From assembly GCA_037013685.1 (NCBI GenBank), contig JAQOXP010000056.1, positions 62,001 to 126,000 on the forward strand: 64,000 bases of DNA. The letters are read 5' to 3'. This document shows, in pieces, positions 956-63,640 of this stretch; positions within the stretch are counted from its first letter, which is position 1; every line of letters begins with the position of its first letter. Source of the stretch: Acridotheres tristis. Its lineage: Eukaryota > Chordata > Aves > Passeriformes > Sturnidae. The notes beneath the pieces were generated by a model. That model was given only the letters and a program-made list of their open reading frames with translations. It searched no databases and was not told the origin of the DNA. A program made the position numbers and the translations under genes.

Positions 956-3900
956 CGGCGGCTCCTGCCCCCCCCCGGCGCTGGGGGGGCTCCCTCGGGC
1001 TCCGGGGCCGGGGGTGGGGGAGGGGCCCCCGGGTCCTTCTGGCTGCGGAGCTGGGGGGGGGAGGGGGAGGGGGAGGGGCCGTCAGGACCCCCCAGGAACC
1101 CACCGGGGACCCCCGGAGTGGGGGGAGGGGTCCCTGGGGGGGGGGGAAATTTGGGGGTTTTTGGGTGAATTTTGGGGGAATTTTGTGGTTTTTGGGTGAA
1201 TTTTTGTGATTTTTGGGTGAATTTCGTGATTTTTGGGTGAATTTTGTGTTTTTTTGAGAGAATTTCGTGATTTTGGGGCTGAATTCTGTGGTTTTTGTGT
1301 GGATTTTGGTTTTTTTCGGTGAATTTTGCGTTTTTTGTGTGAATTTTCCATTTTTGGGGTGAATTTCTGTGTTTTTTGTGTGAATTTTCCATTTTTTGTG
1401 TGAATTTCTGATTTTTGGGGCAGATTTTGGGGGTTTTTTTGTGTGATTTTTCCATTTTTTGTGTGAATTTTCTGTTTTCTGTGTGAATTTTCCATTTTTG
1501 GGGTGAATATCTGTGTTTTTTGGGCGGATTTCGGGGTTTTTGGGTAGAATTTCAGTATTTTTTGTGTGAATTTTGTGGTTTTTGTGTGATTTTTGTAATT
1601 TTTGTGTGGATTTCTGCGTTTTTGGGGCGGATTTTGGGCGTTTTTTGTGTAAATTTTCCATTTTTTGTGTGGATTTCTGTGTTTTTTGTGTAAATTTTCC
1701 ATTTTTTGTGTGAATTTCTGATTTTTGGGGCGGATTTTGGAGTTTTTTTGTGTAAATTTTCCATTTTTTGTGTGAATTTCTGTATTTTTGGGGCGGGTTT
1801 TGGGGTTTTTTTGGGTCTCACGTGGTTCTGGCGTCGCTGCAGCTCCTCCAGCAGGGGCAGAGTCTCCTCGTCTGCCAAATCACAGGGCAGCTGCCCCTGG
1901 GCCAGGAACACCAAAAACACACCTGAGAACCCCCAAAATCACCTGAGAACCCCCAAAATCACCTGAGAACCCCCAAAATCACCCCAAAAAACCCCAAAAT
2001 CACCAAAAATCACCCCAAAAACCCCCAAAATCACCCCAAAAAACCCCAAAGTCACCAAAAACCACCCCCAAAAACACAAAAAAACACCTGAGAACCCCAA
2101 AATCACCCCAAAAACCCCAAAAATCACCAAAAATCACCCGAAAAAAACCCAAAAACCCCAAAATCACCCCAAAAACTCCAAAAATCCCAAAAATCACCCG
2201 AAAAAAAACCCAAAATCACACCAAAAACCCCAAAATCACCAAAAACCACCCCCAAAAACACAAAAAAACACCTGAGAACCCCCAAAATCACCCCAAAAAC
2301 CCCAAAAATCACCCCAAAAACCCTAAAAAAACCCCTGAGAACCTCCAGAAACGCCAAAAAACTCCCCAAAAACCCCAAAAATCACCCCAAAACCCCCAAA
2401 AATCACCCCAAAACCCCCAAAAACACCCCAAAATCACCAAAAACCGCCCCCAACCCCCCCCAAAACCTCCCCCCAATTCCTTTTCAAAAAAAAAAAAAAA
2501 TCCTTCAAAAAATCATCAAAAAAAAATTCAAAATCAATTTTAAAAAATCCCCAAAAATCTCAAATTCTCAAAAAAACCCCAAATCCCACCAGAATAAAAA
2601 ATAATCCTTCAAAAATCACAAAAAAATGATAAAAAATCACCCAAAAATTCAAAATAAATGGAAAAAATCGCGAAAAAAAATCGCGAAAAATCGAAAAAAA
2701 ATCGTAAAAAATCCCAAAAAATCATAAAAAATCCCCCAAAATCCCAAAAACCCTAAAAAACCCCAAATCCCACCGGAATAAAAAATAATCCTGAAAATAA
2801 TCTGAAAAAATCACCAAAAAATTCAAAATAAATGGAAAAAAATCGGGAAAAATCGAAAAAAAATCGTAAAAAATCCCAAAAAATCCCAAATTCTCAAAAA
2901 AACCCAAATCCCATCAGAATAAAAAATAATTCGAAAAAAAAATCGCACAAAAAATTCAAAATAAATGGAAAAAAAAAGGAAAAAAAAATGGCGAAAAATC
3001 GAAAAAAAATCGTAAAAAATCCAAATAAAATCGAAAAAAATCCCAAAAAAAGCCAGAAAAAATCGGGAAAAAATTCCTAAAATTCCCAAAATTCCCAAAT
3101 TTCGGTTACCACGTTGTTCTGGGGGCTCATGTCACACAGGTGCTCGGCCAGGAGCCTGCAGGCCTCCTGCACCCCCCTAAAAAACCCAAAAAAATCCCAA
3201 AAAAATCCCAAAAAATCCAAAAAAATCCCCAAAAAATCCCAAAAAATCCAAAAAAACCCCCAAAACCCCAAAAAACCCCAAATCCCACCAGAATAAAAAA
3301 TAATCCTTCAAAAACCACAAAAAAATGATAAAAAATCACCCAAAAATTCAAAATAAACAGAAAAAAATCGCGAAAAAAAATCGCGAAAAATCGAAAAAAA
3401 ATCGTAAAAAATCGAAAAAAAATCGAAAAAAAACCCCAAAAATTCCCAAAAAATTCCCAAAATTCCCCAAATTCCCAAATTTCGGTTACCACGTTGTTCT
3501 GGGGGCTCATGTCACACAGGTGCTCGGCCAGGAGCCTGCAGGCCTCCTGCACCCCCCTAAAAAACCCAAAAAATCCCAAAAAAATCCCCAAAAAATCCAA
3601 AAAAATCTCAAAAAATCTCAAAACCCCCAAAATCCCCAAGATAATAAAAATCCTTTAACAAATGTCCAAAAAATGCTAAAAAATCAGAAAAAAATCAAAA
3701 TAAATGTTAAAAAATCGCGAAAAAAAATGGCGAAAAATCGAAAAAAAAATCGTAAAAAATCCAAATAAAAAGCTAAAAAAAATCGGAAAAAAATCCCAAA
3801 ATTCCCCAAAAATCCCAAATTTCGGTTACCACGTTGTTCTGGGGGCTCATGTCACACAGGTGCTCGGCCAGGAGCCTGCAGGCCTCCTCCACCCCCCAGT

Positions 3901-6900
3901 GCGCGGCTGCGTGCAGCGGCGTCCAACCGTCCTTGTCCCGAACGTCGGGGTCGTACCCGGCGGCCAGCAGGAGCCTGGGGGGGAAAAAAATCAAATTTTT
4001 ATCGAAATTGTCCAAATTCAGCCTAAAATCGTGGAGAGGGGGAGGGTGGGGGTAAAAAAAGTGGGAAAAATAAAGTGAAAAATGCGAAATTTACATTAAA
4101 ATTGCCCAAATTGTAAAAAAATCCCCAAAAAATCCCAAAAAATCCCAAAAAAAATCCCAAAAAACCCCCAAAAAATCACGAAAAAAACCCCAAAAAATCG
4201 TAAAAAATTGTAAAAAAATCGCCAAAAAATCGCCAAAAATCACCAAAAAATCCCAAAAAATCCCCCAAAAAATCCCAAAAAACCCCCAAAAAATCACGAA
4301 AAAAACCCCAAAAAATCACGAAAAAAACCCCAAAAAATCGTAAAAAATTGTAAAAAAATCCCCAAAAAATCGCCAAAAAATCGCCAAAAAATCCCCCAAA
4401 AAATCCCAAAAAACCCCCAAAAAATCACGAAAAAAACCCAAAAAACCACGAAAAAAACCCAAAAAAATCGTAAAAAATTGTAAAAGAATCCCCAAGAAAT
4501 CGCCAAAAAATCGCCAAAAAATCCCAAAAAATCCCCCAAAAAATCCAAAAAACCCCCAAAAAACCATGAAAAAAAACCCAAAAAACCACGAAAAAATTGT
4601 AAAAAAATCCCCAAAAAATCGCCAAAAAATCGCCAAAAAATCCCAAAAAATCCCCCAAAAAATCCCAAAAAAACCCCAAAAAACCACGAAAAAATTGTAA
4701 AAAAATCCCCAAGAAATCGCCAAAAAATCGCCAAAAAATCCCCCAAAAAATCCCAAAAAAACCCCAAAAAACCACGAAAAAATTGTAAAAAAATCCCCCA
4801 AAAATCCCCCAAAAATCCCCCAAAACAATCCCCAGTGCCGCTCTCACCTCATGACCTCGATGTATCCCTTGGCGGCCGCCACGTGCAGGGCGCTGGCGCC
4901 CGTGGCCGGGTGGGGCCGGTCCCGGAGCTGCCCCGAGTCCAACCAGAGCCGCGAGTCCCGCAGCATCACCTGCTCCTCCGCACCTTTGGCCGCCGTGACA
5001 TCCACACCTGGGCACAGGTAACACACCTGGATACACCTGGGTACACCTGGGACACACCTGAGATACACCTGGATACACCTGGGTACACCTGACACTACAG
5101 AGCTGTGAGTCCCGCAGCATCACCTGCTCCTCCGCACCTTTGGCCGCCGTGACATCCACACCTGGGCACAGGTAACACACCTGGATACACCTGGGCACAC
5201 CTGGATACACCTGAGATACACCTGAGAGCACAGAGCCACATGTCCCGGAGCATCACCTGCTCCTCCGCACCTTTGGCCGCCGTGACATCCACACCTGGGC
5301 ACAGGTAACACACCTGAGACACAGGTAACACACCTGGATACACCCGGATACACCTGGGATACACCTGGGATACACCTGAGCTACACGTGGGATACACCTG
5401 AGAGCACAGAGCTGTGAGTCCCGCAGCATCACCTGCTCCTCCGCACCTTTGGCTGCTGTGACATCCACACCTGGGCACAGGTAACACACCTGAGCACACC
5501 TGGATACACCTGGGACACACCTGGGACACACCTGAGCACACCTGGGAACACCTGGATACACCTGAGCACACCTGGGACTCACCTGAGCACACCTGAGACA
5601 AATCTGAGATACACCTGAGCACACCTGGGCACACCTGGCCACGCCCTGAGCACCACTGGCCACACCCTGAGCACACCCTGAGCACACCTGGCTACACCTG
5701 AGCACACCTGGCTACACCTGAGCACACCTGGCCACACCCTGAGCACACCCTGTGCACACCTGGCCACACCTGAGCACACCTGAGCACACCTGAGCACACC
5801 TGGCCACACCCTGAGCACACCCTGTGCACACCTGGGAACACCCTGAGCACACCTGAGCACACCTGGCTACACCTGAGCACACCCTGTGCACACCTGGCCA
5901 CACCTGAGCACACCTGAGCACACCTGAGCACACCTGGCCACACCCTGAGCACACCCTGTGCACACCTGGGAACACCCTGAGCACACCTGAGCACACCTGA
6001 GCACACCTGAGCACACCTGGCCACACCTGAGCACACCTGAGCACACCTGGCCACACCCACCCCGTCGCTCCAGCTCCGCCCTCAGCAGCTCCTCCAGGGC
6101 CTCGTCCTCGGCCACCTCCAGGGGCAGCTCCAGGTCACAGGTGACGGCGGCGGCGTCGGCCCCGTGATCCAACAGGTACCTGCGGACAGGTGAGCGCTCA
6201 GGTGAGCTCCCACAGGGACAGGTGAGGGCTCAGGTGAGCTCCCACAGGGACAGGTGAGGGCTCAGGTGAGCTCCCACAGGGACAGGTGAGGGCTCAGGTG
6301 AGCTCCCACAGGGACAGGTGAGGGCTCAGGTGAGCTCCCACAGGGACAGGTGAGCGCTCAGGTGAGCTCCCACAGGGACAGGTGAGAGCTCAGGTGAGCT
6401 CCCACAGGGACAGGTGAGCGCTCAGGTGAGCTCCCACAGGGACAGGTGAGAGCTCAGGTGAGCTCCCACAGGGACAGGTGAGGGCTCAGGTGAGCTCCCA
6501 CAGGGACAGGTGAGGGCTCAGGTGAGCTCCCACAGGGACAGGTGAGGGCTCAGGTGAGCTCCCACAGGGACAGGTGAGAGCTCAGGTGAGCTCCAACAGG
6601 TACCTGCGGACAGGTGAGGGGGATTTGGGGATATTTTGGGTCATTTTGGGCCATTTTGGGATATTTCAGGATATTTTTGGGATATTTTTGGGGTTAATTT
6701 GGGTTTTTTTGGGGATTTTTTTGGGATATTTTAGGATATTTTGGATTATTTTGGGGATATTTTTGGGAATATTTTGGGGATATTTTGGGGATATTTTGGG
6801 GATATTTTGGGGATATTTTGGGGATATTTTGGGGATATTTTTGGGATATTTTGGGGATATTTTTGGGAATATTTTGGGGATATTTTGGGGATATTTTGGG

Positions 6901-9307
6901 GATATTTTGGGGATATTTTTGGGGATGTTTTAGGATTATTTTGGGATATTTTGGGATATTTACTGGGCGATGTTGAGGCAGCCACAGGCAGCAGCCACGT
7001 GCAGGGAGAGTTCAGGATATTCAGGATTATTTTAGGATAATTTAGGATAATTTTAGGATATTTTTGGGATATTTTTGGGATATTTTTGGGGATATTTTCA
7101 GGGTATTTTCAGGATATTTTCAGGATATTTTGGGGATGTTTTAGGATTATTTTGGGATATTTTGGGATATTTACTGGGCGATGTTGAGGCAGCCACAGGC
7201 AGCAGCCACGTGCAGGGATATCTGGGATTATTCAGGATTATTTTAGGATATTTTTGGGATAATTTAGGATAATTTATGATAATTTATGATAATTACTGAG
7301 CAATGTTGAGGCAGCCACAGGCAGCAGCCACGTGCAGGGATAGTTTAGATTATTCAGGATTATTTTAGGATATTTTTGGGATAATTTAGGATAATTTAGG
7401 ATAATTTATGATAATTACTGGGCGATGTTGAGGCAGCCACAGGCAGCAGCCACGTGCAGGGATATCTGGGATTATTCAGGATTATTTTAGGATATTTTTG
7501 GGATAATTAAGGATAATTTATGATAATTTATGATAATTACTGGGCGATGTTGAGGCAGCCACAGGCAGCAGCCACGTGCAGGGATAGTTCAGGATATTCA
7601 GGATTATTTTAGGATAATTTATGATAATTTATGATAATTTATGATAATTACTGGGCGATGTTGAGGCAGCCACAGGCAGCAGCCACGTGCAGGGGGGTCC
7701 AGCCCTCGTTGTCCGCCTGGTTCACGTCGGCGCCGCTTTCAACCAGGAACTGCACAACCTCCATGTTCTCATCAATGCACGCCTGGGGACAGTGGGGACA
7801 TTGGGGACACCCTGGGGACATCCCTGACACCCTGGGGACACCGTGGGGACACCCTGGGGACATCGGGGACACCCCCAGGGACAGCCCTGATCTCCATCAG
7901 GAACTGCACAACCTCCATGTTCTCATCAATGCACGCCTGGGGACAGTGGGGACACATTGGGGACATCGGGGACACCCTGGGGACATCCCTGACACCCTGG
8001 GGACACCCTGGGGACACCCCAAGGGATCCATCAGGAACTGCACAACCTCCATGTTCTCATCAATGCACGCCTGGGGACAGATTGGGGACATTGGGGACAC
8101 CCTGGGGACACCCCTGACACCCTGGGGACACCCTGGGGACATCGGGGACACCCTGGGGACATCCCTGACACCCTGGGGACACCCTGGGGACACCCTGGGG
8201 ACACCCTGGGGACATCCCTGACACCCTGGGGACACCCTGGGGAACATTAGTGACACCCTGGGGACACCAGGACAGAGTTGGGGACATTGGGGACACCCTG
8301 GGGACACCCTGGGGACACCCTGGGGACACCCTGGGGACATCCCTGACACCCTGGGGACACCCTGGGGAACATTAGTGACACCCTGGGGACACCAGGACAG
8401 GGTTGGGGACATTGGGGACACCCGCAGGGACACCTGGATGGGGTTGGGGACCCCCCAACCCCCCCAGGGCCTCATTGGGATCCCCCAAGCCCCGCCCCCT
8501 CCCGGCAGAGCTGTCAATCACAGCAGCCCCACCCAGGCCCCGCCCCTTTTCTCCAGACCACGCCTCTTTAATAGGCCCCGCCCATCTCACGAACGAGGCG
8601 GTTCCTTTAAGAACGACCCCGCCCTTTTATACCAGGCCCCGCCCACCTCAGAACCGCGGCGGCTCCTTTAAGAATGACCACGCCCCTCCCATAAGGCTCC
8701 GCCCACCTCAGAAGCGCGGCGGCGGCTCCTTTAAGGCCCCGCCCTTTGCACCCGGCCCCACCCACACAAACGCGGCGGCTCCTTTAAGTAAAGCCCCGCC
8801 CCTTTCTCCAGGCCCCGCCCACCTCAGAACGGCGGCGTTTCCTTTAGTTCAAGCCCCGCCCCTTTGCCCCTCAAGCCCCGCCCACCTCAGACCGGCGGCG
8901 TTTCCTTTAGGTCAAGCCCCGCCCCTTACTCCAGGCCCCGCCCACCTCAGACCGGCGGCGTTTCCTTTAGTTCAAGCCCCGCCCCTTACTCCAGCCCCCG
9001 CCCACCTCAGACCGGCGGCGTTTCCTTTAGGAAAGGCCCCGCCCCTTTCCCCCCTCAAGCCCCGCCCACCTGGTGCAGGGCGCTGATCCCGTCCGCGTTG
9101 GCCCCGCCCAGCAGCGCGCGCCCCCCCCCTTCGGGCGCCATCACCATGGCGCGCGCCTCGGCCAGCTCGGCGCCTGCGCACACGGCGCGGAACTCGGCCT
9201 GCCGCTCGAATCGAACCCGGCTCGGGCCCGGCCGAGCTTCGGGCGCGGCCGGAGCCGCCGCCGCCGCCTCCTCCCAGCGCCTCAGCTGCTCCCGGCGCCG
9301 CTCCCGA

Positions 9308-9338
<31 letters not shown>

Positions 9339-9485: not shown

Positions 9486-9503
9486 GGTGCGATGCGGTGG
9501 TTT

Positions 9504-9534: not shown

Positions 9535-10536
9535 TCACTTCCAGCGCCCGCCCACGCGGCCCTTGGTGACCTTCTTGCTGTGGGGGAGGGGCGGTGGGGG
9601 AGGGGGGGGGGTCAGCGGGACCCTCCCCGAAATAAAACGAGAGACACAAAAAAAACCCCGAAATGCGCAAAAAAAGCGCAAAAATTCCCCCCGAAAACGC
9701 AAAAATCCACCCCAAAAAGCACAAAATTCGCACGAAAAACCCCAAAATCCGCATTAAAATACCCAACATCCACCTAAAAAACCCAAAATCCTCCCAAAAT
9801 TCCCACAAAAGACACAAAATCCCCCAAAATCCACCCCAAACCCCCCAAAATTCGCATTAAAAATCCCCAAATCCGCCCCAAAACCCCAAATTCCGCCCCA
9901 AAAAGTCCCAAATACGCCCCAAAACCACAAAAAACTCCCCAAATCCCCACAAAATCCTCAAAATCTCCACAAAAACCCCCAAATCCACCCCAAAAAACCC
10001 AAAATTCACCCCAAAAACCCCAAAATCCACATTAAAAAACCAAAAAACCCCCCAAATCCCCAGAAAAAAACCAAAATCCACCCTAAATCCACCCTAAAAA
10101 CCACAAAAAAACCCCAAAATCCACATTAAAAAGCCCAAAATCCACCCAAAATATCCCCAAAACCCCAAAATCCCCAAAATCTCCACAAAAAAACCAAAAA
10201 TGTCAAAAAAACCCCCCAAATCCACCCCAAAAAACCCCAAAATCCCAACAAAAAACACAAAAAAACCCCAAATCATCCCCAAAAAACCCAAAAATCCACA
10301 TTAAAAAACCCAAAAAAACCCCAAAATCCCCCCCAGGAAAACACCCCAAACCCCCAAAAAAAACCCCAAATTTCCCAAAATCCCCCAAATTTACCCCAAA
10401 TTTACAATTTCTGGGCGTGGCTGATCCGGTTGTACAGGACGTTGATCTGGGGGTGGGGGAGGGGCGGGGTCAGACCCCCCAAATTTGGGGACCCCTCCCC
10501 CCCCCCCCATAAAAAGGGGCGGGGGGAGGGGTCCCC

Positions 10537-16500: not shown

Positions 16501-19500
16501 TTCCCAGCAGCGATTTTGGGGTGAATTTTGCCATTTTGGGGTTATTTCCCAGCAGCCATTTTGGGGTGAATTTTGCCATTTTTGGGCTGTTCCCAGCAGC
16601 GATTTTGGGGTGAATTTTGCCGTTTTTGGGGTTATTTCCCAGCAGCGATTTTGGGGTGAATTTTGCCGTTTTTGGGGTTATTTCCCAGCAGCGATTTTGG
16701 GGTGAATTTTGCCATTTTTGGGGTTATTTCCCAGCATTAATTTTGGGGTGAATTTTGCCGTTTTTGGGGTTATTTCCCAGCAGCGATTTTGGGGTGAATT
16801 TTGCCATTTTTGGGTTTTTTTTCCCAGCAGCGATTTTGGGGTGAATTTTGCCATTTTTGGGGTTTTTTTCCCAGCAGCGATTTTGGGGTGAATTGGGGCA
16901 GTTTGGGGGTGACTCCAACATTAATTTTGGGGTGAATTTTGCCATTTTTGGGGTTATTTCCCAGCATTAATTTTGGGGTGAATTTTGCCATTTTTGGGGT
17001 TATTTCCCAGCAGCGATTTTGGGGTGAATTTTGCCATTTTTGGGCTGTTCCCAGCATTAATTTTGGGGTGAATTTTGCCATTTTTGGGTTGTTTTCAGCA
17101 GTCATTTTGGGGTGAAATTTGCCATTTTTGGGGTTATTTCCCAGCAGCGATTTTGGGGTGAATTGGGGCAGTTTGGGGGTGACTCCAACATTAATTTTGG
17201 GGTGATTTCAGTCATTTTTGGGCTGTTCCCAGCATTAATTTTGGGGTGAATTTTGCCATTTTTGGGCTGTTCCCAGCATTGATTTTGGGGTGAATTTTGC
17301 CATTTTTGGGCTGTTCCCAGCATTAATTTTGGGGTGAATTTTGCCGTTTTTGGGCTGTTCCCAGCAGCCATTTTGGGGTGAATTCAGGCATTTTTAGCCC
17401 CTCACAGCCAGCCTGGCCTGCCTCTCTCTCTCTTTCTCAGTTCTGCTCCTGAGCTGCTCGTTCCTCTCGGCGCGGCGCCGCTCCTGGGGGAGGGGAGGGC
17501 TCAGAAACCACCCAAAAAAACCAAAATTAAATCCCAAAAAAATCCCTGAAAATCGCAAAAGATCCCAAAGATCCCAAAAATAACAAAAAAACCAAAAAAA
17601 ACCCGAAAAAAATCCCCCCAAAAATGACAAAATCCCCCCCCAAAAAAACGAAAAAAAAACCCCAAAAATTACAAAAAACCCCCAAAATGCCCCCGAAAAA
17701 CCTCAAAAAATCCCCCCAAAAACCTGAAAAAAAAAAAAAAAAAAAAAAACCAAGATATCCCCTAAAAATACCCTCAAAAAAACCTCGGAAAAAAAAACCA
17801 AAAAAAAAACCAAAAAAACCCCAAAAAAATAAAAAAAAACCACAAAAATCCACAAAAAAATCCCAAAAAAGCTCCAAAAATCCCCCAAAAAACCGGAAAA
17901 AAAACCCCAAAACCCCCGAAAAAAATCAAAAATCCCCCAAAATCCCCAAAATTGCCCAAAATGGCCCCAAATTGCCCCAAATGCTCACGATTCTCTCCAT
18001 GAGCCCCTGCAGCTCCTCCTCCTCCCGGCGCCGCTGCTCGAAGTGCGCGTCGATGAGAGTCTGCAGCTCCAGCAGGTCCTTCTCCATCCTCTTCCTGTGG
18101 ATGTCCTGGCCCAAAAAACCCAGAATTTCACCCAAAATAATCCCGGGATAGCCACGAAAAAATCCCGGTTTAAAAATTCCCAAAAAAAGCAAAAAAATCC
18201 CCATTTAAATCCCATTAGAAATGACAAAAATCTGAATTTTTTCTCCTTTTTCCGTCCTTTTCCTGTAGATGTTCTGGCCCAAAAAATTCAAAATTTAACC
18301 CAAAATAATCCCGGGATAGCCACAAAAAAATCCCCGTTCAAAAAGTCCCAAGAATCCCCAAAAAAATCCCATTAAAATCCCATTAAAAATGACAAAAATC
18401 TGAATTTTTCCTCCCTTTTCCATCCTTTTCCTGTGGATGTCCTGGCCCAAAAAACCCAGAATTTCACCCAAAATAATCCCGGGATAGCCACAAAATAATC
18501 CCGGTTTAAAAAGTCCCCAAAAAACCAAAAAAAACCCCGTTAAAATCCCATTAAAAATGACAAAAATCTGAATTTTTTCTCCTTTTCCGTCCTTTTCCTG
18601 TGGATGTCCTGGCCCAAAAAATTCAAAATTTAACCCAAAGTAATCCCGGGATAGCCACAAAAAAATCCCCGTTCAAAAATTCCCAAAAAAAGCAAAAAAA
18701 ACCCCATTAAAATATCATTTAAAATGACAAAAATCTGAATTTTTTCTCCATTTTCCGTCGTTCTCCTGTGGATGTTCTGGCCCAAAAAATTCAAAATTTA
18801 CCCCAAAATAATCCCGGGATAGCCACAAAAAAATCCCCGTTCAAAAAGTCCCCAAAAATCACAAAAAAGATCCCATTAAAAACGACAAAAATCTGAATTT
18901 TTTCTCCCTTCTCCATCCTCTTCCTGTGGATGTCGTGGCCCAAAAAACCCAAAATTTCACCCAAAATAATCCCGGGATATCCATAAAAAATCCCCGTTCA
19001 AAAAGTCCCAAAAAAAGCAAAAAAAACCCCATTAAAATCCCATTAAAAATGACAAAAATCCGAATATTTCGCTCTTTTTTTCACTTTTTTCCTGTGGATG
19101 TCCTGGCCCAAAAAGTCCCAAATTTCACCCAAAATTCCCTCCCAAAAACCCCAAATTTCTCCCCCCCAAATCCCATTTTTTCCCCCAATTTTTCCCAAAA
19201 TCCCAATTTTTTTTTCCCCAAAATCCCATTTTTCCCCAAAATCCCATTTTTTTTCTGAATTTTTCCCCCAATTTTCCCAAAATCCCATTTTTTTCCCCAA
19301 GTCCCATTTTTTCCCCAATTTTCCCCCATTTTTCCCCCATTTTTCCCCAAAATCCCCATTTTTTCCCCCATTTATTTTCCCATTTTCCCCCATTTTTTTG
19401 CCCAAAATCCCCATTTTTTCCCCCATTATTTCCCCCATTTATTTTCCCATTTTCCCCATTTTTTCCCCAAAATCCCCATTTTTCCCCCATTATTTCCCCC

Positions 19501-22500
19501 ATTTATTTTCCCATTTCCCCCATTTTTTCCCCAAAATCCCCATTTTTTCCCCCATTATTTCCCCCATTTCTTTTCCCATTTTTTCCCCATTTTTCCCCAT
19601 TTTCCCCCATTATTTCCCCCATTTATTTCCCCATTTTTCCCCATTTTTTGCCCAAAATCCCGGTTTTTTTCCCCATTATTTCTCACATCAAAGTCCATTT
19701 TTCCCCATTTTTCCCCCATTATTTCCCCCATTTATTTTCCCATTTTTCCCCATTTTTTGCCCAAAATCCCGGTTTTTTTCCCCATAATTTCTCACATCAA
19801 AGTCCATTTTTCCCCCATTTTTTTCCCCATTTTTCCCCCATTATTTCCCCCATTTATTTCCCCATTTCTCCCCATTTTTTGCCCAAAATCCCGGTTTTTT
19901 CCCCCATAATTTCTCACATCAAAGTCCATTTTTCCCCCATTTTCCCCCATTATTTCCCCCATTTATTTCCCCATTTTTCCCCCATTTTTTCCCCAAAATC
20001 CCCATTTTTTCCCCCATTATTTCCCCCATTTATTTCCCCATTTTTCCCCCATTTTTTCCCCAAAATCCCCATTTTTTCCCCCATTATTTCCCCCATTTAT
20101 TTTCCCATTTTTCCCCATTTTTTGCCCAAAATCCCATTTTTTTCCCCCATAATTTCTCACATCAAAGTCCATTTTCCCCCATTTTTTCCCCAAAATCCCG
20201 GTTTTTTCCCCCATAATTTCTCACATCAAAGTCCATTTTCCCCCATTTTTTTGCCCAAAATCCCGGTTTTTTCCCCATAATTTCTCACATCAAAGTCCAT
20301 TTTTCCCCCATTTTTTTCCCCATTTTTCCCCCATTATTTCCCCCATTTATTTTCCCATTTTCCCCATTTTTTGCCCAAAATCCCCATTTTTTCCCCCATT
20401 ATTTCCCCCATTTATTTTCCCATTTTTCCCCATTTTTTGCCCAAAATCCCGGTTTTTCCCCCATAATTTCTCACATCAAAGTCCACTCTTTCTCCCTCGG
20501 GGATTTTGGGGGGGGCGAGCTGGGACACCATGTGACTGTGGGGGAGGGGGCACAGAAAACACACAATTAAAACCAAAAAATAAACCCAAAATAAACCAAA
20601 ATTAACCCCAAAAACCTCCCCCGAATTTACACAAAAAACCCCAAAATTATCCCCCCAAAATAAACCCAAAAAAGCCAAAATTAACCCAAAAAATCCCAAA
20701 ATTATCCCCAAAATAAACCCAAATTATCCCCAGAAAATCCAAAATTCTCCCCCCAAAATAAACCCAAAATTACCCAAAAAAACCCAAAATTAGCCCCAAA
20801 AACCTCCCCCGAATTTACACAAAAAAACCCAAAATTATCCTCCCAAAATAAACCCAAATTAGCCCCAAAAAATCCAAAATTAGCCCCAAAATAAACCCAA
20901 AATAAACCCAAATTATCCCCAGAAAATCCAAAATTATCCCCCCAAAACAAACCCAAAATTACCCAAAAAATCCAAAATTAGCCCCAAAATAAACCCAAAA
21001 AATTACAGAATTATCCCCCCAAAATAATCCCCAAATAGCCAAAATTAGCCCCAAAATAAACCCAAAAAATCCAAATTATCCCCAAAATTAGCCCCAAAAA
21101 ACCCAAAATTATCCCCCCAAAATAAACCCCAAAACCCCAAAATTATCCCCAGAAAACCCAAAATTAAACCCCCAAAATAAACCCAAAAAAACCCCCAAAT
21201 TACCCCCAAAATAAAACCAAAAAAACCAAAATTATCCCCAAAAAATCCAAAATTAAACCCCCAAAATTACCCAAAAAAGCCCCAAAATTATCCCCAAAAT
21301 AAACCCAAACAATCACAAAATTATCCCCCAAAACAAACCCAAAAACCCCAAAATTAGCCCCAAAATAAACCCAAAAAACCCCAAATTAGCCCCAAAAAAT
21401 TCCAAAATTATCCCCCCAAAATTCCCGAATTTCCTCCCAAAATTCCCAATTTTTCCCCCAAAATTCCCAAATTTTTCCCCCAAAATTCCCAAATTTTCCC
21501 CCCAAAATTCCCAATTTTTCCCCCCAAAATTCCCAATTTTCCCCCCAAAATTCCCAAATTTTCCCCCAAAATTCCCAAATTTTCCCCCAAAATTCCCAAA
21601 TTTCCCCCCAAAATTCCCAAATTTTCCCCCAAAATTCCCAAATTTTCCCCCCAAAATTCCCAAATTTCCCCCCAAAATTCCCAATTTTCCCCAAATCCTC
21701 ACCGGGGTCGGGGCCGCTCCTCCTCTGGGGGAAACAAAAATTCGGATTTTTTTGGGTCATTTTGGGGTTTTTTTCTTTTTTTAATTCTTGGGGATTTTTG
21801 GAGTTTTTTTAGGGATTTTTCGGGAATTTTTGGGGTTTTTTTGGGGAAGGAAATTTGGGATTTTTTGGGGAATTTTTGGGGGATTTTTAAGGGTTTTTTT
21901 GTTAATTTTTGGGTATTTTTTTGAGGGTTTTTTTAAGGATTTTTTGGGTTTTTTGGGGGGATTTTTTGTGGGGTTTTTTGTGGGTTTTCTTGGGTTATTT
22001 TGGGTTTTTTTGGGGAGGGAAATTTGGGATTTTTTGGGATTTTTTGGGGAATTTTGGGGGGATTTTTGGGGTTTTTTTTTAGGTTTTTTTTTAATTTTTG
22101 GGTATTTTTTGAGGCTTTTTTCAGGGATTTTTGGGGGTAAATTTGGGATTTTTGGGGTTTTTTTGGGGGGATTTTTGGGGTTTTTTTTAGGTTTTTTTTT
22201 TAATTTTTGGGTATTTTTTTAGGTTTTTTTCAGGGATTTTTGGGGGGAAATTTGGGATTTTTTGGGAATTTTTGGGGGATTTTTAAGGGTTTTTTGTTAA
22301 TTTTTGGGTATTTTTTTGAGGGTTTTTTTAAGGATTTTTTGGGGTTTTTGGGGGGATTTCTTGTGGGTTTTTTTGGGTTATTTTGGGGTTTTTTGGGGAG
22401 GGAAATTTGGGATTTTTGGGGAATTTTTGGGGAATTTTTGGGTTTTTTTTTAGGTTTTTTTTTAAATTTTTGGGTATTTTTTGAGGTTTTTTTCAGGGAT

Positions 22501-37300: not shown

Positions 37301-40300
37301 TCCCCCCAATTTTCCCAAATCCCCCCGAATTTCCCCCAAATTTCCCCGAATTTTCCCAATTTCCCCCAAACCCCCCAAAATTTCCCCAGAATCCCCCAAA
37401 ACTGATCCCAAATTTCCCCCAAACCCCCCGAATTTGCCCCAAATTTCCCCCCAAATCCCCCCAAATTTTCCCAAATCCCCCCAATTTTCCCAATTTCCCC
37501 CAAATTTCCCCGAATCCCTCCCAAAACCCCCAAATTTTCCCGGATTTCCCCCAAATCCCCCCAGATTTTCCCAAATCCCCCCGAATTTCCCCCCAAACCC
37601 CCCAAATTTCCCCAGAATCCCCCAAAACTGATCCCAAATTTCCCCCCAGATCCCCCCGAATTTGCCCCAAATTTCCCCCCAAATCCCCCCGAATTTCACC
37701 CAAATTCCCCCAAACTTCCCCCCCAAACCCCCGGAATTTCACCCAAATCCCCCCCGGATTTTCCCAAACCCCCCAATTTTCCCAATTTTCCCGTTTTTCC
37801 CCGTTTTTTCCCCAATTTTTGCCCCCAGGGCCGCTGCTCCGTCTCGGGTTCGTTCCCCGCCTGGTGGCGCTGCTGAGCTCGGAGCACGACGGCGCCCACG
37901 AGCACGGCCTGGGGGCGCTCTGCAGGTGCGTGACACCCCCAAAAAATAAAATTAAAATAAAATAAAATAAATTAAAAACACGAAAAATAACAAGATACTA
38001 AAATCCGGGGGAATGGCAGAAGAAATCCCGCGAAAAAAGCAAAAAATTTCGGGAAAAAATGGTGACATTTGGGGGGAAAGGGGAGGGGCTGGGGGCTCTC
38101 GGCAGGTGGGTGACACCCCCAAAAAAACAATAAAATAAAAAGATTTTCAGGTTGGTATTTATTGATTTTGGGGCTGATTTTCCCCCATTTTTCACTGGTT
38201 TTGGGCCGATTTTTGTCCATTTTTTGCCCATTTTTGGGCCGATTTTTGTCCATTTTTTTCCATTTTCGAGCTGATTTTTCCCCAATTTTTTATCCATTTT
38301 TGATCCATTTTTGGGCTGGTTTTTGGCCATTTTGGGCCGATGTTTGTCCATTTTTTTCCATTTTCGAGCCGATTTTCACTGATTTTTCACCGATTTTTGT
38401 CCATTTTTTGTCCATTTTTGGGCCAATTTTTGTTCATTTTTAATCCATTTTTGGGCTGATTTTTGGCCATTTTCGGGCTGATTTTCCCCGATTTTTCACT
38501 GATTTTTGGGCCGATTTTTGTCCATTTTTTGTCCATTTTTGGGCCGAGTTTTGTCCATTTTTTGTCCATTTTTGGGCCGAGTTTTGTCCATTTTTGGGCT
38601 GATTTTTGTCCAATTTTTGTCCATTTTTGTCCATTTTTTTCCATTTTCGAGCCAATTTTCACTAATTTTTGGGCCAATTTTTGCCCATTTTTTGTCTATT
38701 TTTGGGCCAATTTTTTGTCCATTTTTGGGCTGATTTTTGTCCAGTTTTGGGCCGAGTTTTGTCCAGTTTTGGGCCGAGTTTTGTCCATTTTTTGTCCATT
38801 TTTGGGCCGAGTTTTGTCCATTTTTTGTCCATTTTGGGCCGATTTTTGTCCAATTTTTGTCCAATTTTTGTCCATTTTTTGTCCATTTTCGAGCCGATTT
38901 TCACTAATTTTTGGGCCGATTTTTGCCCATTTTTTGTCTATTTTTTGTCCATTTTTTGTCCATTTTTGGGCTGATTTTTGTCCATTTTGGGTCGATTTTT
39001 GTCCATTTTTTATCCATTTTTGGGCTGATTATCCCTGATTTTTCACTGATTTTCACTGATTTTTGTCCATTTTTTGTCCATTTTTGGGCCGATTTTTGTC
39101 CATTTTTGGGCCGAATTTTGTCCATTTTTTGTCCATTTTTGGGCCGAGTTTTGTCCATTTTTTGTCCATTTTGGGCCGAGTTTTGTCCATTTTTTGTCCA
39201 TTTTTGGGCCGATTTTTGTCCATTTTTTGTCCATTTTTGGGCTGATTTTTGTCCAATTTTTGTCCTTTTTTTTCCATTTTCGAGCCGATTTTCACTAATT
39301 TTTGGGCCGATTTTTGCCCATTTTTTGTCTATTTTTGGGCCAATTTTTGTCCATTTTTTGTCCATTTTTTGTCCATTTTTGGGCCGATTTTTGTCCATTT
39401 TTGGGCCGAATTTTGTCCATTTTTTGTCCATTTTTGGGCCGAATTTTGTCCATTTTTTGTCCATTTTTGGGCCGAATTTTGTCCATTTTTTGTCCATTTT
39501 TGGGCCGATTTTTGCCCATTTTTTGTCCATTTTTGGGCCGATTTTTGTCCATTTTTTGTCCATTTTCGAGCCGATTTTTCCCCGATTTTTGCCGGTTTCC
39601 CCCCGATTTCCCCCACCCCGTTTCCCCCCGTTTTCCCCCCCAATTCCCGCTATTTTAGTTAATTAAATTTGATTTAATTCCCCCCAGCCTGGCCCGGGGC
39701 TGTCCCGAGGCCGTCCGGGAGCTCCGGGCTCTGGGCTCGGAGTCGCTGCGGCGCCGCCGCCGGGAGCTGCTCCGGGACCCCCAACGATTCCGGGTGAGAT
39801 CCTGGGCTGAAATCACGGCAATTCGGGAAAAAATAAAATATATTAAATGGGGGGGGGGGGAGTGAAAAATCCGGGGGGAAAGCAAAAAAAATTTGGGGGA
39901 AAAAAGTCAAAAATCCGGAGAAGAAACGCAAAAATTTGGGGGAAAAATATAAAAAATCCGGGGAAAGAAACAAAAAAGAATTGGGGGAAAAAATGAAAAA
40001 TACAGGGAAAAAACAAAAAAAAAATTGGGGGAAAAAAGTCAAAAATCCGGGGAAAAAACCAAAAAGATTTGGAGGAAAAATATAAAAAATCCGGGGAAAA
40101 AAACAAAAAAAAATTGGGGGAAAAAATGAAAAATACGGGGAAAAAACAAAAAAAATTTGGGGGAAAAAAGTCAAAAAAATCCGGGGGAAAAGCAAAAAAA
40201 AATTGGGGGAAAAAATGAAAAAAATCCGGGAAAAAAATCAAAAAAAGTTTGGGGGAAAAAATTCAGAAATCCGGGGAAAAAACGCAAAAATTTGGGGGAA

Positions 40301-52906: not shown

Positions 52907-55900
52907 ATGGAGGAGGAGGAGGGGGAGGGGCTCGGGGAGACCCCCCAGGACCCCCCCCCGCAGCCCCCCCCCCCTGCGCCGCAAATCCTCGGCCAATTAC
53001 CGCAGCTACGCCGTGGAGCCGCACGCCAAGGTGGGCAAAAAACCCCGAAACTGGCCCAAAAATCGGCCTGGGAACCCCAAAAATCGGCCTGGGAACCCCG
53101 AAACTGACCCAAAAATCGGCCTGGGAACCCCAAAAATCGGCCTGGGAACCCCAAAAATCAGCCTGGGAACCCCAAAAAACGGCCTGGGAACCCCAAAAAT
53201 CAGCCTGGGAACCCTGAAAACACCAAAAAAACACCTTGGAAAACCCAAAAATCAGCCTGGGAACCCCGAAACTGACCCCAAAAACAGCCTGGGAACCCTG
53301 GAAAACCCAAAAACCAGCCTGTGAACGCTGGAAAACCAAAAAATCGGCCTGGGAACCCTGAAAACACCAAAACTGCCCCAAAAATCAGCCTGGGAACCCC
53401 AAAAATCAGCCTGGGAACCCCCAAAACCCCCAAAAATCAGCCTGGGAACCACCAAAACCCCCCAAAAAAACAGCCTGGGAATCCTGAAAACCCAAAAATC
53501 AGCCTGGGAACCCCAAAACCGCCCCAAAAATCAGCCTGGAAAACCCAAAAATCAGCCTGGAAACCCCAAAAATCAGCCTGGGAACCCCCAAAACTGACCC
53601 AAAAATCAGCCTGGGAACCCCAAAAATCAGCCTGGGAACCCTGAAAACACCAAAAAACCACCCTGGAAACCCCAAAAAATCAGCCTGGGAACCCCCAAAA
53701 CTGCCCCAAAAATCAGCCTGGGAACCCTGAAAACACCAAAACCGCCCCAAAAAACAGCCTGGAAACCCCAAAACCGCCCCAAAAATCACCCTGGGAACCC
53801 CGGAAACCCCCCAAAATCAGCCTGGGAACCCTGAAACCCCAAAAAAAAACACCCTGAAAAACCCAAAAATCATCCTGAGAACCCCGAAAACCAAAAAAAA
53901 CCACCTCAAAAATCACCCTGAAAATCCCAAAAAACCACTCCCAAAAAAACCCCAAAACCACCCTGAAAACCCCACAAAACCACCCCAAAATAATCCCAAA
54001 AATCACCCCACAAAAAAACCCCAGCCCTAAAAATCCCAAAAACAACTCCTGGTCCCCAAAATCCCTTCAATTCCCCACCCAAAATCTTCACCTCGAATTT
54101 CTCCCCCTGCAGAGAAAATCCAAAATTTCGGCGTCTCGCAAGCTCCAGCTGAAGGTGAGGGGGGGTCCCCAAATTTTGGGGGAGGCCAAAATCTCCATTT
54201 TTTTACCTAAATTTGAGGGATTTGTCCCCAAATTTGGGGGTTTGCCAAAAATGGGGGGGGGTCCCCAAATTTCTCCCCCAGACGCTGCTGCTGCAGAGGG
54301 CGAAGAAGGAGCTGGAGAAGGAGGAGCAGGAGAGGGCGGCCGAAAAAATTCGGGTTTTGGGGGAGCTGTGCCCACCCCTGGCCCAGCTGGAGGGGATGGG
54401 GGTGACAGAGCTGCAGGTGAGGGGACATTGGGGACAAGGGGTGGGGAAAGTGAGGGGGAAATGGGGGAAAATGTGAGGGGAAATGGGGGAAAATGTGAGG
54501 GGAAAATGGGGGAAATGTGAGAGGGAAATGGGGGAAATGTGAGGGGGAAATGGGGGAAAATGTGAGGGGAAATGGGGGAAATGTGAGGGGGAAATGTGAG
54601 GGGGAAATGGGGGAAAATGTGAGGGGGAAATGGGGGGAATGTGAGGGGGAAATGGGGGAAAATGTGAGGAGGAAATGGGGGAAAATGTGAGGGGGAAATG
54701 GGGGGGAAGGTGAGGGGAAAATGGGGGAAAATGTGAGGGGGAAATGGGGGAAAATGTGAGGGGAAAACGGGGGAAAATGTGAGGGGGGAATGGGGGAAAA
54801 TGTGAGGGGGAAATGCGGGGAATGTGAGGGGGAAATGGGGAAAATGTGAGGGGGAAATGGGGGAAATGTGAGGGGAAAACGGGGGAAAATGTGAGGGGAA
54901 AATGGGGGAAATGTGAGGGGGAAATGGGGGAAATGTGAGGGGGAAATGGGGGAAAATGTGAGGGGAAAACGGGGGAAAATGTGAGGGGAAAACGGGGGAA
55001 AATGTGAGGGGGAAATGGGGGAAATGTGAGGGGGAAATGGGGGAAAATGTGAGGGGGAAATGGGGGAAAATGTGAGGGGAAAACGGGGGAAAATGTGAGG
55101 GGGGAATGGGGGAAAATGTGAGGGGGAAATGGGGGAAAATGTGAGGGGGAAATGGGGGAAAATGTGAGGGGGGAATGGGGGAAAATGTGAGGGGGAAATG
55201 CGGGGAATGTGAGGGGGAAATGCGGGGAATGTGAGGGGAAAATGGGGGAAATGTGAGGGAGGAATGGGGAAAATGTGAGGGGGAAATGGTGAAATGTGAG
55301 GGGAAAATGGGGGAAATGTGAGGGGGAAATGGCGGGAAACATGAGGGGACAAAATGGCGGCAAAGGTGACAGAGCTGCAGGTGAGGGGACAGAGAAGGGA
55401 CACTGAGGACAAGGGGTGAGAAAAGGGAGGGGAAAATGAGGGAAATGTGAAGGGAAAATGGGGGGAATATGAGGGGAAAATAGGGGGAATGTGAAGGGAG
55501 AAAAGGGAGAAAATGTGAGGGGAAATGGGGAGAAATGTGAGGAGAAAATTGAGAGAAATATGAGGGGGAAATGGTGGCACATATGAAGGGAGAAAAGTGG
55601 GGGAACGGGAGGGGGAAATGGAGGAAAATGTGAGGGGGAAATGGAGGGGAATGTGAGGGCAAAAGAGGGCGGGAAAACGTGAGGGGACAAAATGGCTGAG
55701 GGGGGTGGGGTGACAGAGCTGCAGGTGAGGGGACATCGGGGACACAGCGGGGACATCACGGGGCACCCCGGGGTGACATCGCTGTCCCCTCCGTGTCCCC
55801 CCCGTGTCCCCCCCGTGTCCCCCCCGTGTCCCCCCCGTGTCCCCCCCGTGTCCCCCTCGTGTCCCCCCCGCGTCCCCAGGAGCTGTGCCGGGAGCTCCAC

Positions 55901-58129: not shown

Positions 58130-58131
58130 GG

Positions 58132-59415: not shown

Positions 59416-59455
59416 CAATTATTTCAGCATCAATTAATTAATCCTTGATTGGCGT

Positions 59456-59461
59456 TTTATT
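59456..59461 (-). terminator. Sulfotransferase poly(A) signal AATAAA
   Basis: TTTATT on plus. It lies 350 bp beyond the predicted stop at 59806 and 60 bp from the opposing TNNI3 signal, so the two genes end tail to tail. Confidence 0.75.
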
Positions 59462-59805
59462 GATTAGCACGATTTGGGGAGGGGGGGTCGTGGGTGAATT
59501 TGGGGGGTCCCTGGGGGTCTCCTCCCCATTTTTGGGGGGTCCCGGGGGGGTTTTGGGGTCCCCTGCGGGTTTTTTGGGGGGGTCTCCCCCAGTTTTTGGG
59601 GGTCCCGGTTGGTTTTTGGGATCCCCTGATGGTTTTTTTAGGGGGTCTCCTTCTGTTTTTGGGGGTCCCGGGCCGTTTTCTGGGGGTCCTGAGGGATTTT
59701 TTTGGGGTCCTGGTTGGTTTTTGGGGCGTCCTGGGGGATTTTTTGGGGGTCGTGGTTGGTTTTTGGGGGGTCCCGGGCCGTTTTCTGGGGCTCCTGAGGG
59801 ATTTC

Positions 59806-60317: not shown

Positions 60318-62234
60318 CCCAGGGGAAGGTCACCCCCAGCCCCTCCATCCGTTCCCGGTACACGAGCTCGAAGCGCCGGCTCTGCTCGGGGCTCAGGTGA
60401 TTCCTCCAGTCCCCCGAAATTCCTAGCCCAAAAAACAACAAAAATGGGAAAAAAAATAAAAATTAAAATATCCCAAAAATCCCCCAAAAATCCCCCCAAA
60501 ATTCCGCCCAAAAATCCCCAAAAAATCCCGTGAAAAACACCGAAAATGGACAAAAAACCCCCGAAATTCCTGACCCAGAAAACAGCAAAAATGGGAAAAA
60601 AAATAAAAATTAAAATCACCCAAAGATCCCCCAAAAAATCCCCCCAAAATTCCGCCCAAAAATCCCAAAAAAATCCCGTGAAAAACACCAAAAATGGGCA
60701 AAAAAACCCCGAAATTCCTGACCAAAAAACCAACAAAAATGGGCAAAGAAAAAAGTTGAAATCACCCAAAGATCCTCGAAAAAAATTCCCCAAAATTCCC
60801 CCCAAAAATCCCGTAATAAACACCAAAAATGGGCAGAAAAAAAAAAATAAAATACCCCAAAGATCCCCCCAAAAATTCCCCAAAATTACCCCCAAAATCC
60901 TCCAAAAAATCCCCAAAAAATTCCTCCAAAAAATCCCCCAAAAATCCCATGAAAACCACAAAAAATGGACAAAAAACCCCCGAAATTCCTGACCGAAAAA
61001 CCACCAAAAATGGGCAAAAAAATCGAAATTTAAAATACCCCAAAGAGATCCCCAAAATCCCCCCAAAATTCCCCAGAAATCCCGTAAGAAACGCCAAAAA
61101 TGGGCAAAACAAAAAAAATTAAAATACCCCAAAGATCCCCCAAAAAACCCCAAAATTCCGCCCAAAAAATCCCATGAAAAACACCAGAAATGGGCAAAAA
61201 ACGCCCGAAATTGCTGTGAAAAAACTGTCACTGTCCCCAATGTCCCTGTCACTGTCCCCAATGTCCCCATTGATGTCCCCAGTGTCCCCAATGTCCCTGT
61301 CAGTGTCCCCAGTGTCCCCAATGTCCCCACTGATGTCCCCAGTGTCCCCAGTGTCACTGTCAGTGTCCCTGTCACTGTCCCCATTATCCCCAGTGTCCCC
61401 TGAGTGTCCCAAATGTCCCCAGTGTCCCCAATGTCCCTGTCAGTGTCCCCTGAGTGTCCCCAGTGTCTCTGTCAGTGTCCCCAGTGGTGCCCCAGTGTCC
61501 CCAATGATGTCCCCAGTGTCCCCAGTGTCTCTGTCACTGTCCCCAGTGTCCCCAGTGTCCCCACCTTTCCGGAGGAAGGGTCCCCGTGCCGTGTCCAGGA
61601 TGAAGGCGGGGCTGTGTCACTGTCACTGTCCCCAATGTCCCTGTCACTGTCCCCAGTGTCCCCAATGTCACTGTCACTGTCCCCAATGATGTCCCCAGCG
61701 TCAGTGTCACTGTCCCCACCTTTCCTGAGGAAGGGTCCCCGTGCCGTGTCCAGGATGAAGGCGGGGCTGTGTCACTGTCACTGTCCCCAATGTCACTGTC
61801 ACTGTCCCCAGTGTCCCCAATGTCACTGTCACTGTCCCCAATGTCACTGTCACTGTCCCCAGTGTCACTGTCACTGTCCCCAATGTCCCCAATGTCCCCA
61901 GTGTCACTGTCCCCAGTGTCCCCACCTTTCCGGAGGAAGGGTCCCCGTGCCGTGTCCAGGATGAAGGCGGGGCTGTGTCACTGTCACTGTCACTGTCCCC
62001 AATGATGTCCCCAATGTCCCCAATGTCCCCAGTGTCAGTGTCACTGTCCCCACCTTTCCGGAGGAAGGGTCCCCGTGCCGTGTCCAGGATGAAGGCGGGG
62101 CTGAGGCTGAAGTTGCTCATGGGGTTGTGGCTCATGGCCCCGAAGGAGGCGTTGGCCACCACGGCGTCCAGGGCGGCCGGGGACAGCGGGTGGCCCAGGA
62201 ACGAGCACAGGCGCTGCACGCTGCCACGGAGGTC
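59806..62234 (-). CDS. SULT2B1-like cytosolic sulfotransferase, last two coding exons
   Basis: Sulfotransferases move sulfate from PAPS to hydroxyl groups, and SULT2 members prefer sterols. Exons on minus: 62054-62234 (181 nt, the usual size of the penultimate SULT exon) and 59806-60422. The first codes LRGSVQRLCSFLGHPLSP, FGAMSHNPMSNFSLSP and TARGPFLRK. The junction G|GA completes RKGISGDWRNHL, the conserved RKGxxGDWKNxF PAPS-binding and dimer region, then SRRFELVYRERMEGLG and FPWD. FPWD and ILDTARGPFLRKG resemble SULT2B1 more than SULT1 or SULT2A. After FPWD the frame stays open for 169 codons of heptad repeat (RDPQKNN type). Earlier exons lie right of the window. Both borders of the 181-nt exon, and the start of the last exon, are copied in the surrounding array. 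Confidence 0.85.
60423..61220 (-). repeat. A/C-rich intron with repeated last-exon acceptor edges, SULT
   Basis: About 150-bp units include CCCCGAAATTCCTGACC, the first 12 bp of the last exon plus acceptor. Extra edges are at 60569, 60717 and 60988, with a mutated one near 61213 (true edge 60422). The rest is CCCAAAAATTCCCCAAAATT repeat. Confidence 0.85.
61225..62053 (-). repeat. GTCCCCAATGTCACTGTCAC array with three extra exon donor edges, SULT
   Basis: 10-16 bp GTCCCCAGT and GTCACTGTCAC units. Three extra copies of the last 55 bp or so of the 181-nt exon with its GTGGGG donor have edges at 61565, 61720 and 61926 (true edge 62054). The copy at 61720 has a G to A change in the Arg-Lys codon region (TTCCTGAGG for TTCCGGAGG). 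Confidence 0.92.
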
Positions 62235-63640
62235 CTGGGGACAGCAGGGGACATTGGGGACACTGAGGGGACACTGGGGACAGCGGGTGGCCCAGGAACG
62301 AGCACAGGCGCTGCACGCTGCCACGGAGGTCCTGGGGACACATTGGGGACACTGGGGACACATTGGGGACACTGGGGACACTGGGGACACAGTGGGGACA
62401 TTGGGGACACATTGGGGACACTGGGGACACATTGGGGACATTGGGGACACTCAGGGGACATTGGGGACATTGGGGACAGCGGGTGGCCCAGGAACGAGCA
62501 CAGGCGCTGCACGCTGCCACGGAGGTCCTGGGGACACAGTGGGGACATTGGGGACACATTGGGGACACTGGGGACACATTGGGGACATTGGGGACACGTT
62601 GGGGACAGTGACAGTGACATTGGGGACATTGGGGACACTGAGGGGACACTGGGGACACACTGGGGACACATTGGGGACAGTGACAGTGACATTGGGGACA
62701 CATTGGGGACAGCGGGTGGCCCAGGAACGAGCACAGGCGCTGCACGCTGCCACGGAGGTCCTGGGGACAGCGGGGACACTGGGGACACATTGGGGACACT
62801 GGGGACATTGGGGACATTGGGGACACTGGGGACACATTGGGGACACTGAGGGGACACTGGGGACAGCGGGTGGCCCAGGAACGAGCACAGGCGCTGCACG
62901 CTGCCACGGAGGTCCTGGGGACACATTGGGGACATTGGGGACACATTGGGGACACAGTGGGGACACTGGGGACACTCAGGGGACATTGGGGACACTGGGG
63001 ACAGCGGGTGGCCCAGGAACGAGCACAGGCGCTGCACGCTGCCACGGAGGTCCTGGGGACACAGTGGGGACAGTGACAGTGACATTGGGGACACATTGGG
63101 GACATTGGGGACACTGAGGGGACATTGGGGACAGTGACAGTGACATTGGGGACACTGGGGACACATTGGGGACATTGGGGACAGCGGGTGGCCCAGGAAC
63201 GAGCACAGGCGCTGCACGCTGCCACGGAGGTCCTGGGGACACAGTGGGGACACATTGGGGACACTGAGGGGACACATTGGGGACACATTGGGGACATTGG
63301 GGACACTGAGGGGACATTGGGGACACTGGGGACAGTGACAGTGACACTGGGGACACATTGGGGACAGCGGGTGGCCCAGGAACGAGCACAGGCGCTGCAC
63401 GCTGCCACGGAGGTCCTGGGGACACAGTGGGGACACATTGGGGACACTGGGGACACATTGGGGACATTGGGGACACTGGGGACAGTGACAGTGACATTGG
63501 GGATACTGGGGACACATTGGGGACACTGGGGACACATTGGGGACATTGGGGACACATTGGGGACACTCAGGGGATTTGGAGACATTTGGGGGATTTGGGA
63601 CACTTGGGACATTTGGGGACATTGAGGTGACCCTGAACTG
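62235..63640 (-). repeat. GGGGACACATT array with seven extra exon acceptor edges, SULT
   Basis: 9-11 bp GGGGACATT and GGGGACACT units host seven extra copies of the first 56 bp or so of the 181-nt exon (LRGSVQRLCSFLGHPLS) with acceptor CCCCAG. Edges are at 62331, 62527, 62760, 62914, 63052, 63232 and 63415 (true 62234). The exon parts are essentially identical, so the expansion is recent or kept uniform by gene conversion. Confidence 0.95.

Follow-up and report, generated by a model that had tools for sequence, protein, structure and literature searches.

Exon stuttering in a passerine bird: copies of exon edges in repeat-filled introns, probably arising by tandem duplication under a selective filter

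Introduction

Why would an intron carry extra copies of the edge of its neighboring exon, splice site included? A 64,000-nucleotide stretch of the Acridotheres tristis (Passeriformes, Sturnidae) assembly GCA_037013685.1 (contig JAQOXP010000056.1, positions 62,001 to 126,000; hereafter the window) raises this question. The window holds seven bird genes, PPP1R12C, TNNT1, TNNI3, a SULT2B1-like sulfotransferase gene (SULT), HSPBP1, KMT5C, and DNAAF3. Exon-edge copies next to their exons are real in five of them. Herein, we report that these copies are exon stuttering in a passerine and not a new class. Their origin is best accounted for by hypermutable tandem duplication filtered by selection, an explanation to which we assign a probability of about 0.83.

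Sequence stuttering is a feature of chicken dot-chromosome introns; cases that take in an exon edge together with its splice site are called exon stuttering (Hron et al. 2026, Genome Biol Evol, PMC12954441). In the portion of that paper used here, exon stuttering is reported in 190 of 5,572 chicken dot-chromosome introns, with 1–44 copies and 20–187 bp of exon. The association with dot chromosomes is described as strong, 46 of the 236 published introns lying elsewhere, and repeat expansions are noted for other birds in some instances. Introns whose length differs between individuals also belong to the described features. The mechanism of stuttering is left open in the same portion (PMC12954441).

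Results and Discussion

Exon-edge copies at twelve borders

Exon borders were set by hand in this one assembly from translation, GT/AG dinucleotides, and reading phase, giving 92 borders (47 donors and 45 acceptors). This denominator is incomplete because some real exons are unannotated: TNNT1 is missing at least one exon ahead of its final one, and several 5' or 3' edges are missing from DNAAF3, TNNI3, and SULT. A 30-mer centered on each border was searched on the same strand within 8 kb, allowing up to 6 mismatches. Extra copies were found at 12 of the 92 borders in five genes, amounting to 40 copies with 1–7 per border (Table 1). The copies hold 11–68 bp of exon, and GT or AG is intact in 39 of the 40, AG being lost in one TNNT1 exon g acceptor copy. 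All 40 copies are in direct orientation on the intron side, with every donor copy downstream and every acceptor copy upstream of its source. The opposite strand yielded a single 30-mer match in total, and after shuffling of the window by 2-mers inside blocks of 200 bases, 0 of 92 borders matched. PPP1R12C E2 and SULT S1 have copies of both their acceptor and donor edges, and the TNNT1 f donor copies and g acceptor copies lie in one common intron. At the SULT S1 acceptor, the 56 bp exon part is identical in all eight sequences, the seven copies and their source.

A first-pass annotation of the window had described eleven such borders in four genes, with one to seven extra copies each, donor and acceptor edges both hit, and some exons flanked on both sides. 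All eleven were recovered in the named genes along with these features, and the HSPBP1 H4 donor, the weakest of the 12 cases, was added. The exon length of 9 to 68 bp given there held at its upper bound, while the lower bound moved to the measured 11 bp.

Assignment to exon stuttering

The published screen for exon stuttering uses blastn-short with matches of at least 20 bp, a bit score of at least 42.1, and a signal above that of shuffled introns (as far as set out in the text consulted of PMC12954441). This screen was rerun on 43 exons and 44 introns with our own annotation, our own script, and one intron shuffle. It returned 23 proximal matches, and 7 of the 44 introns qualified; no distal matches were found in the 44 introns and no matches in the one shuffle. 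The match was flush with the border in 22 of 23 cases, and the remaining one ended 6 bases short due to two mismatches. The seven passing borders, with 1–7 matches each and 28–68 bp of exon, are inside the published ranges. The other five of the 12 borders fall below the screen thresholds, their captures being too short, and TNNT1 g passes with one of its six copies.

The affected exons themselves are unaltered. The PPP1R12C exons join in frame and align at 93% with a jay protein, and the other affected exons with both borders annotated keep an open frame. As in chicken, a lateral part of an exon with its donor or acceptor is repeated directly in the adjoining intron, the exon stays intact, and the introns are filled with repeats. 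The differences are that the bird here is a passerine and that captures of 11–18 bp were counted as well. The two frequencies, 7 of 44 introns here and 190 of 5,572 in chicken, are not directly comparable because this small window was picked for the feature. The first-pass annotation knew of no named class for the copies, whereas exon stuttering already names it. PPP1R12C, TNNT1, TNNI3, SULT, HSPBP1, KMT5C, and DNAAF3 are absent from the main text of PMC12954441 as far as that text was available to us. The window thus adds a member from another bird lineage, and it presents exon stuttering, named in 2026 from chicken, as dense and recent in a passerine.

Two related systems were compared. Intronic minisatellites, or variable number tandem repeats, are thought to turn over through slippage or unequal exchange. 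The introns of the window resemble them in being tandem arrays, with Tandem Repeats Finder (TRF) periods between a few bp and a few hundred, but differ in that the units hold unique coding sequence and splice sites. In the AGGT model of intron gain, as given in the part of PMC3443670 consulted, tandem genomic duplication involving exon sequence creates extra splice sites. That likeness ends where the exonic segment becomes a new intron in the model; here an existing border is straddled and the intron is merely lengthened. An origin as new introns was rejected for PPP1R12C, the one gene compared in this way: its joined exons E2–E6 align to jay, pheasant, and turtle without inserts, and the copies sit in the introns between.

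Duplication is sparse at borders and dense in introns

The first-pass annotation had read the recurrent breakpoint inside the exon as a sign of a duplication process starting across exon–intron junctions, with selection for extra splice sites as the other option. Such a junction preference, through splice-site-like motifs or breaks linked to transcription or splicing, would agree with 12 affected borders in five genes and with two exons hit on both sides. The distribution of duplication makes it very unlikely. With 6 mismatches allowed, duplicated 30-mers were found at 12 of 92 borders versus 1211 of 1371 intron positions (54 of 1371 intron positions after shuffling). With 3 mismatches, the counts were 11 of 92 versus 932 of 1371 (none after shuffling). 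The 1371 sampled positions exclude annotated exons and may include unannotated ones. At the border itself 13% of 30-mers were duplicated; at a depth of 30 bp in the intron the figure was 57%, and at 300 bp it was 75%. Borders are therefore sheltered from duplication, not targeted by it, and junction-preferring duplication is rejected for this window by this contrast. That exon edges are duplicated no more often than intron positions, seen here within this window, is the outcome that the first-pass annotation had named, for a genome-wide control, as speaking against its own proposal. What survives of that proposal is that the duplications do span junctions, with the inner breakpoint in the exon; a preferential start there does not.

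TRF repeats make up 89% of the 45,085 bases of intron, with a range of 58–97% by gene, and 4% of the 4,707 bases of exon. Two local causes were also considered and rejected. Arrays are not generally seeded at splice sites, since 30-mers located 5–15 bp into the intron are less duplicated than deeper ones. G-quadruplex (G4) structures do not mark the affected borders, where predicted G4 cover was 0.128 versus 0.217 at the others (P 0.20), which also speaks against junction preference.

Tandem duplication filtered by selection

Two elements are inferred: the molecular process, either slippage or unequal exchange with a possible part for short homologies, and a selective filter. The introns of the affected genes would act as hypermutable tandem arrays in which a duplication occasionally extends from a breakpoint in the array to one inside the adjoining exon. 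Its product would be the outer exon part followed by two rounds of exon edge, splice site, and intron piece. The exon would stay whole, and the extra edge would lie in the intron on the proper side, oriented like its source. A captured unit would then multiply together with the array. Duplications of a whole exon, or those lengthening an exon out of frame, would presumably be purged, leaving mainly single-edge ones among those that touch exons. A duplication spanning the border in this way explains why each of the 40 copies is direct and lies on the intron side.

Randomly placed tandem duplications were simulated, the observed distances between copies supplying the periods. In the simulation, 77% were purely intronic, 14.7% straddled a single exon edge, and 7.2% took a whole exon. 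An in-exon breakpoint, which the first-pass annotation thought beyond simple intronic slippage, accordingly needs no special explanation. Among exon-touching duplications, 63.6% were single-edge and 31.5% whole-exon. No whole-exon copy was found in 41 exons, and the P value for no whole-exon case in 12 was 0.008 (0.003 or 0.14 under other length ranges). Under an exact-run criterion, the 41 exons contained one tandem duplication within an exon, in DNAAF3 D8 (47442-47586), which is 21 bp long, in frame, and a coding repeat of PSPQNRD. The lack of whole-exon copies and the in-frame state of this sole in-exon duplication are as a selective filter predicts.

The array structure points the same way. 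TRF periods over the copies were about 122, 134, 133/176, 168, 380, and 155/206 bp. All copies share the same exonic end at 7 of the 10 multi-copy borders, the exceptions being the PPP1R12C E4 acceptor, TNNT1 g, and TNNI3 I4. This common end suggests that there was probably one capture per border, followed by array growth. Short exact matches shared by the exonic ends and the array had a mean length of 5.25 bp (combined P 0.005; the TNNT1 g breakpoint was set by hand).

These observations amount to testable rules for stuttering: copies are direct, lie on the intron side, mostly share a single exonic breakpoint per border, never comprise a whole exon, and are rarer at borders than in introns. 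The rules therefore favor ordinary tandem duplication with selection over a junction-seeking process.

Age and direction of copying

In PPP1R12C, jay, pheasant, and turtle have A, R, E, and R or L at positions for which all three copies of the E4 acceptor edge encode T, G, Q, and V, respectively. All five copies at the E2 donor encode L and N, versus R/H, R/D, and K/E in jay, pheasant, and turtle. Both TNNI3 I4 copies encode T where sparrow, munia, and zebra finch have M, I, or A. The residues at these three borders are also present in this bird's own exons. Such lineage-private residues indicate that copying ran from exon to intron and from the exons of this bird, and that the copies at the E2 donor, E4 acceptor, and TNNI3 I4 borders are recent or recently homogenized. 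At PPP1R12C E5, both copies encode Q; the exon in the window and four compared proteins have E.

Splicing consequences

The effect of each copy was modeled by using it in place of the true site with everything between kept. An in-frame stop resulted for 29 of the 40 copies and a frame shift for 11; none was harmless. Given these predicted effects, the copies are probably passive, with exon definition keeping them from use. Splice-site strength does not set them apart: in a matrix built from the window's own sites, copies scored a mean of 6.8 versus 6.6 for true sites, and the copy scored at least as high as the true site in 33 of 40 cases. This raises the question of how the cell finds the true site where as many as seven equally strong copies stand beside it and any wrong choice would harm the frame.

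Five peptides were searched for repetition within proteins: those of the PPP1R12C E2 acceptor, E2 donor, E4, and E5, and the start of TNNI3 I5, the exon after the affected I4. No bird protein with a repeated peptide was present among 240 records, a weak test as these were mostly gene predictions and cluster representatives. One record of the 240, sturgeon protein P0009, contained the TNNI3 I5 peptide twice.

Observations that weigh against the proposed origin

Several results count against tandem duplication filtered by selection. Compared with other positions in the same exon, microhomology reached P<0.05 at 2 of the 12 borders and had P>=0.2 at 7. Long periods cover part of the borders, with none established for E3, f, H4, I4, and S2. 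The seven SULT S1 acceptor copies have no long TRF period covering them and are spaced by 97–233 bp, so that later array turnover must be assumed there.

Divergence is a further difficulty. Without TNNT1 g, pairwise substitutions numbered 26 in 3,496 positions of the exon parts and 567 in 7,535 of the intron parts; with TNNT1 g, they numbered 117 in 4,078 and 841 in 10,148. TNNT1 g itself was reversed, with 91 in 582 in the exon parts and 274 in 2613 in the intron parts. As a measure of selection, this contrast was set aside and is descriptive only, because arrays of low complexity change by slippage and are hard to align well. The lower divergence of exon parts needs faster array mutation, array misalignment, or conversion. 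Gene conversion between exon and copies, in place of recent age, would keep exon parts alike; it fits their near identity at most borders beside differing spacers, and the copies holding the source exon's private residues at three borders. The same pattern would, however, follow from recent duplication and quickly mutating arrays, and conversion should also reach the intron bases adjoining the border, which are only partly alike. The exon parts of TNNT1 g have moreover diverged. We regard conversion as a rather doubtful alternative.

Synonymous changes present the other difficulty. Among 16 distinct exon-part changes, 10 were synonymous where about 30% are expected (nominal P 0.003–0.01), and the same was true of 6 of the 8 changes present in a single copy (nominal P 0.007–0.014). 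These P values are uncorrected, and the events are few and not fully independent. Passive copies would not be expected to show this excess. It would suit copies kept by selection as alternative donors, acceptors, or cassette exons, as would the retention of GT/AG in nearly all copies and scores equal to those of true sites. Intact sites are, however, already expected from recent copying alone, and the stops and frame shifts leave room for a regulatory, transcript-lowering, or cassette role alone. Given also the small number of dependent synonymous events, selected use seems to us improbable. A broader version of this view, in which captured edges are not passive, is unlikely as well: some would be selected as alternative exon ends acting as an expression brake, or would convert with the true exon, and the arrays would be reservoirs of exon-edge variants. 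In a milder form of this view, captured exon fragments would serve as unique-sequence time stamps for the turnover of hypermutable bird introns.

An assembly artifact, with array length or copies inflated in the assembly, is the explanation we find hardest to credit. Such regions are hard to sequence, and an 11-C run in TNNI3 I2 resembles a homopolymer length error. The intron parts of the copies nevertheless differ by substitutions and indels at all 12 borders. In chicken, the PHF8 repeat structure was checked with raw nanopore reads, according to the part of Hron et al. consulted (PMC12954441).

Catalogue of copies

Table 1. Exon borders with extra copies in adjoining introns (window coordinates)
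Border	Copies	Exon part	Copy region	Strand	Source exon	Copy positions and remarks
PPP1R12C E5 donor	2	68 bp, with GTAACC	3110..3829	-	E5 3830-3974	exon parts about 3490-3557, 3110-3177
PPP1R12C E4 acceptor	3	53-64 bp	5008..5470	-	E4 4848-5007	first exon bases 5470, 5294, 5161
PPP1R12C E3 acceptor	1	12 bp	6592..6603	-	E3 6061-6179	
PPP1R12C E2 donor	5	43 bp, with GTAAWT	6964..7651	-	E2 7652-7782	first intron bases 7540, 7418, 7296, 7174, 6963
PPP1R12C E2 acceptor	2	39 bp	7783..8070	-		first exon bases 8070, 7936
TNNT1 g acceptor	6	13-29 bp	18106..19102	-	17989-18105	degenerate; 168-bp tandem unit
TNNT1 f donor	6	11 bp	19686..20474	-	20475-20535	
HSPBP1 H4 donor	1	17 bp	38089..38105	+	37829-37925	2 mismatches
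TNNI3 I4 donor	2	16, 18 bp	55365..55724	+	54282-54416	first intron bases 55381, 55725
SULT2B1-like S2 acceptor	2	12 bp	60558..60988	-	begins 60422	first exon bases 60988, 60569
SULT2B1-like S1 donor	3	50 bp	61565..62053	-	S1 62054-62234	first intron bases 61925, 61719, 61564
SULT2B1-like S1 acceptor	7	56 bp	62276..63415	-		first exon bases 63415, 63232, 63052, 62914, 62760, 62527, 62331

Single 24-mer matches elsewhere of PPP1R12C E7, TNNT1 Ec, DNAAF3 D6, and TNNI3 I2 were left out as isolated single-window matches. The start of PPP1R12C intron 1 (8573-9070) is a GC-rich array with a period of about 60 bp, whose units contain GAGGTGGGCGGGG, a sequence like the E1 donor; the E1 donor itself failed the 30-mer border test. 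On the sense strand, the 1,053-bp array that makes up PPP1R12C intron 3 (5007-6060) contains AGGT 68 times, a dense series of potential dual-specific splice sites like those treated in the part of PMC10809524 consulted.

Gene content of the window

PPP1R12C (- strand) matched a jay protein at 94% identity across 93% of the part searched. The best match of TNNI3 (+) was sparrow (Ammospiza), with 96% identity over 94% of the query; a Lonchura fragment was 98% identical across 55% of the query, and crane, pigeon, cuckoo, and cormorant reached at most 90%. These similarities point to a passerine source for the window. The best PDB match of KMT5C (-) was SUV420H2, and the sulfotransferase gene (-) was SULT2B1-like by sequence comparison. 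A gene on the - strand with a troponin domain match is one that we take to be TNNT1. Fes1 and HEAT matches mark a + strand gene, presumably HSPBP1. Another + strand gene, which we take to be DNAAF3, has DUF4471 and DUF4470 matches, the latter slightly under its cut-off.

In TNNI3 exon I2 (52928-53007), the run of 11 C starts at 52964, and the upstream ATG is out of frame with the conserved part. The sparrow TNNI3 protein is likewise labeled LOW QUALITY, and the run in I2 is possibly a homopolymer length error. A candidate start codon of PPP1R12C (9393) shares its strand with the last TNNT1 exon, which starts at 9577, ends in GRVGGRWK, and lies less than 200 bp upstream.

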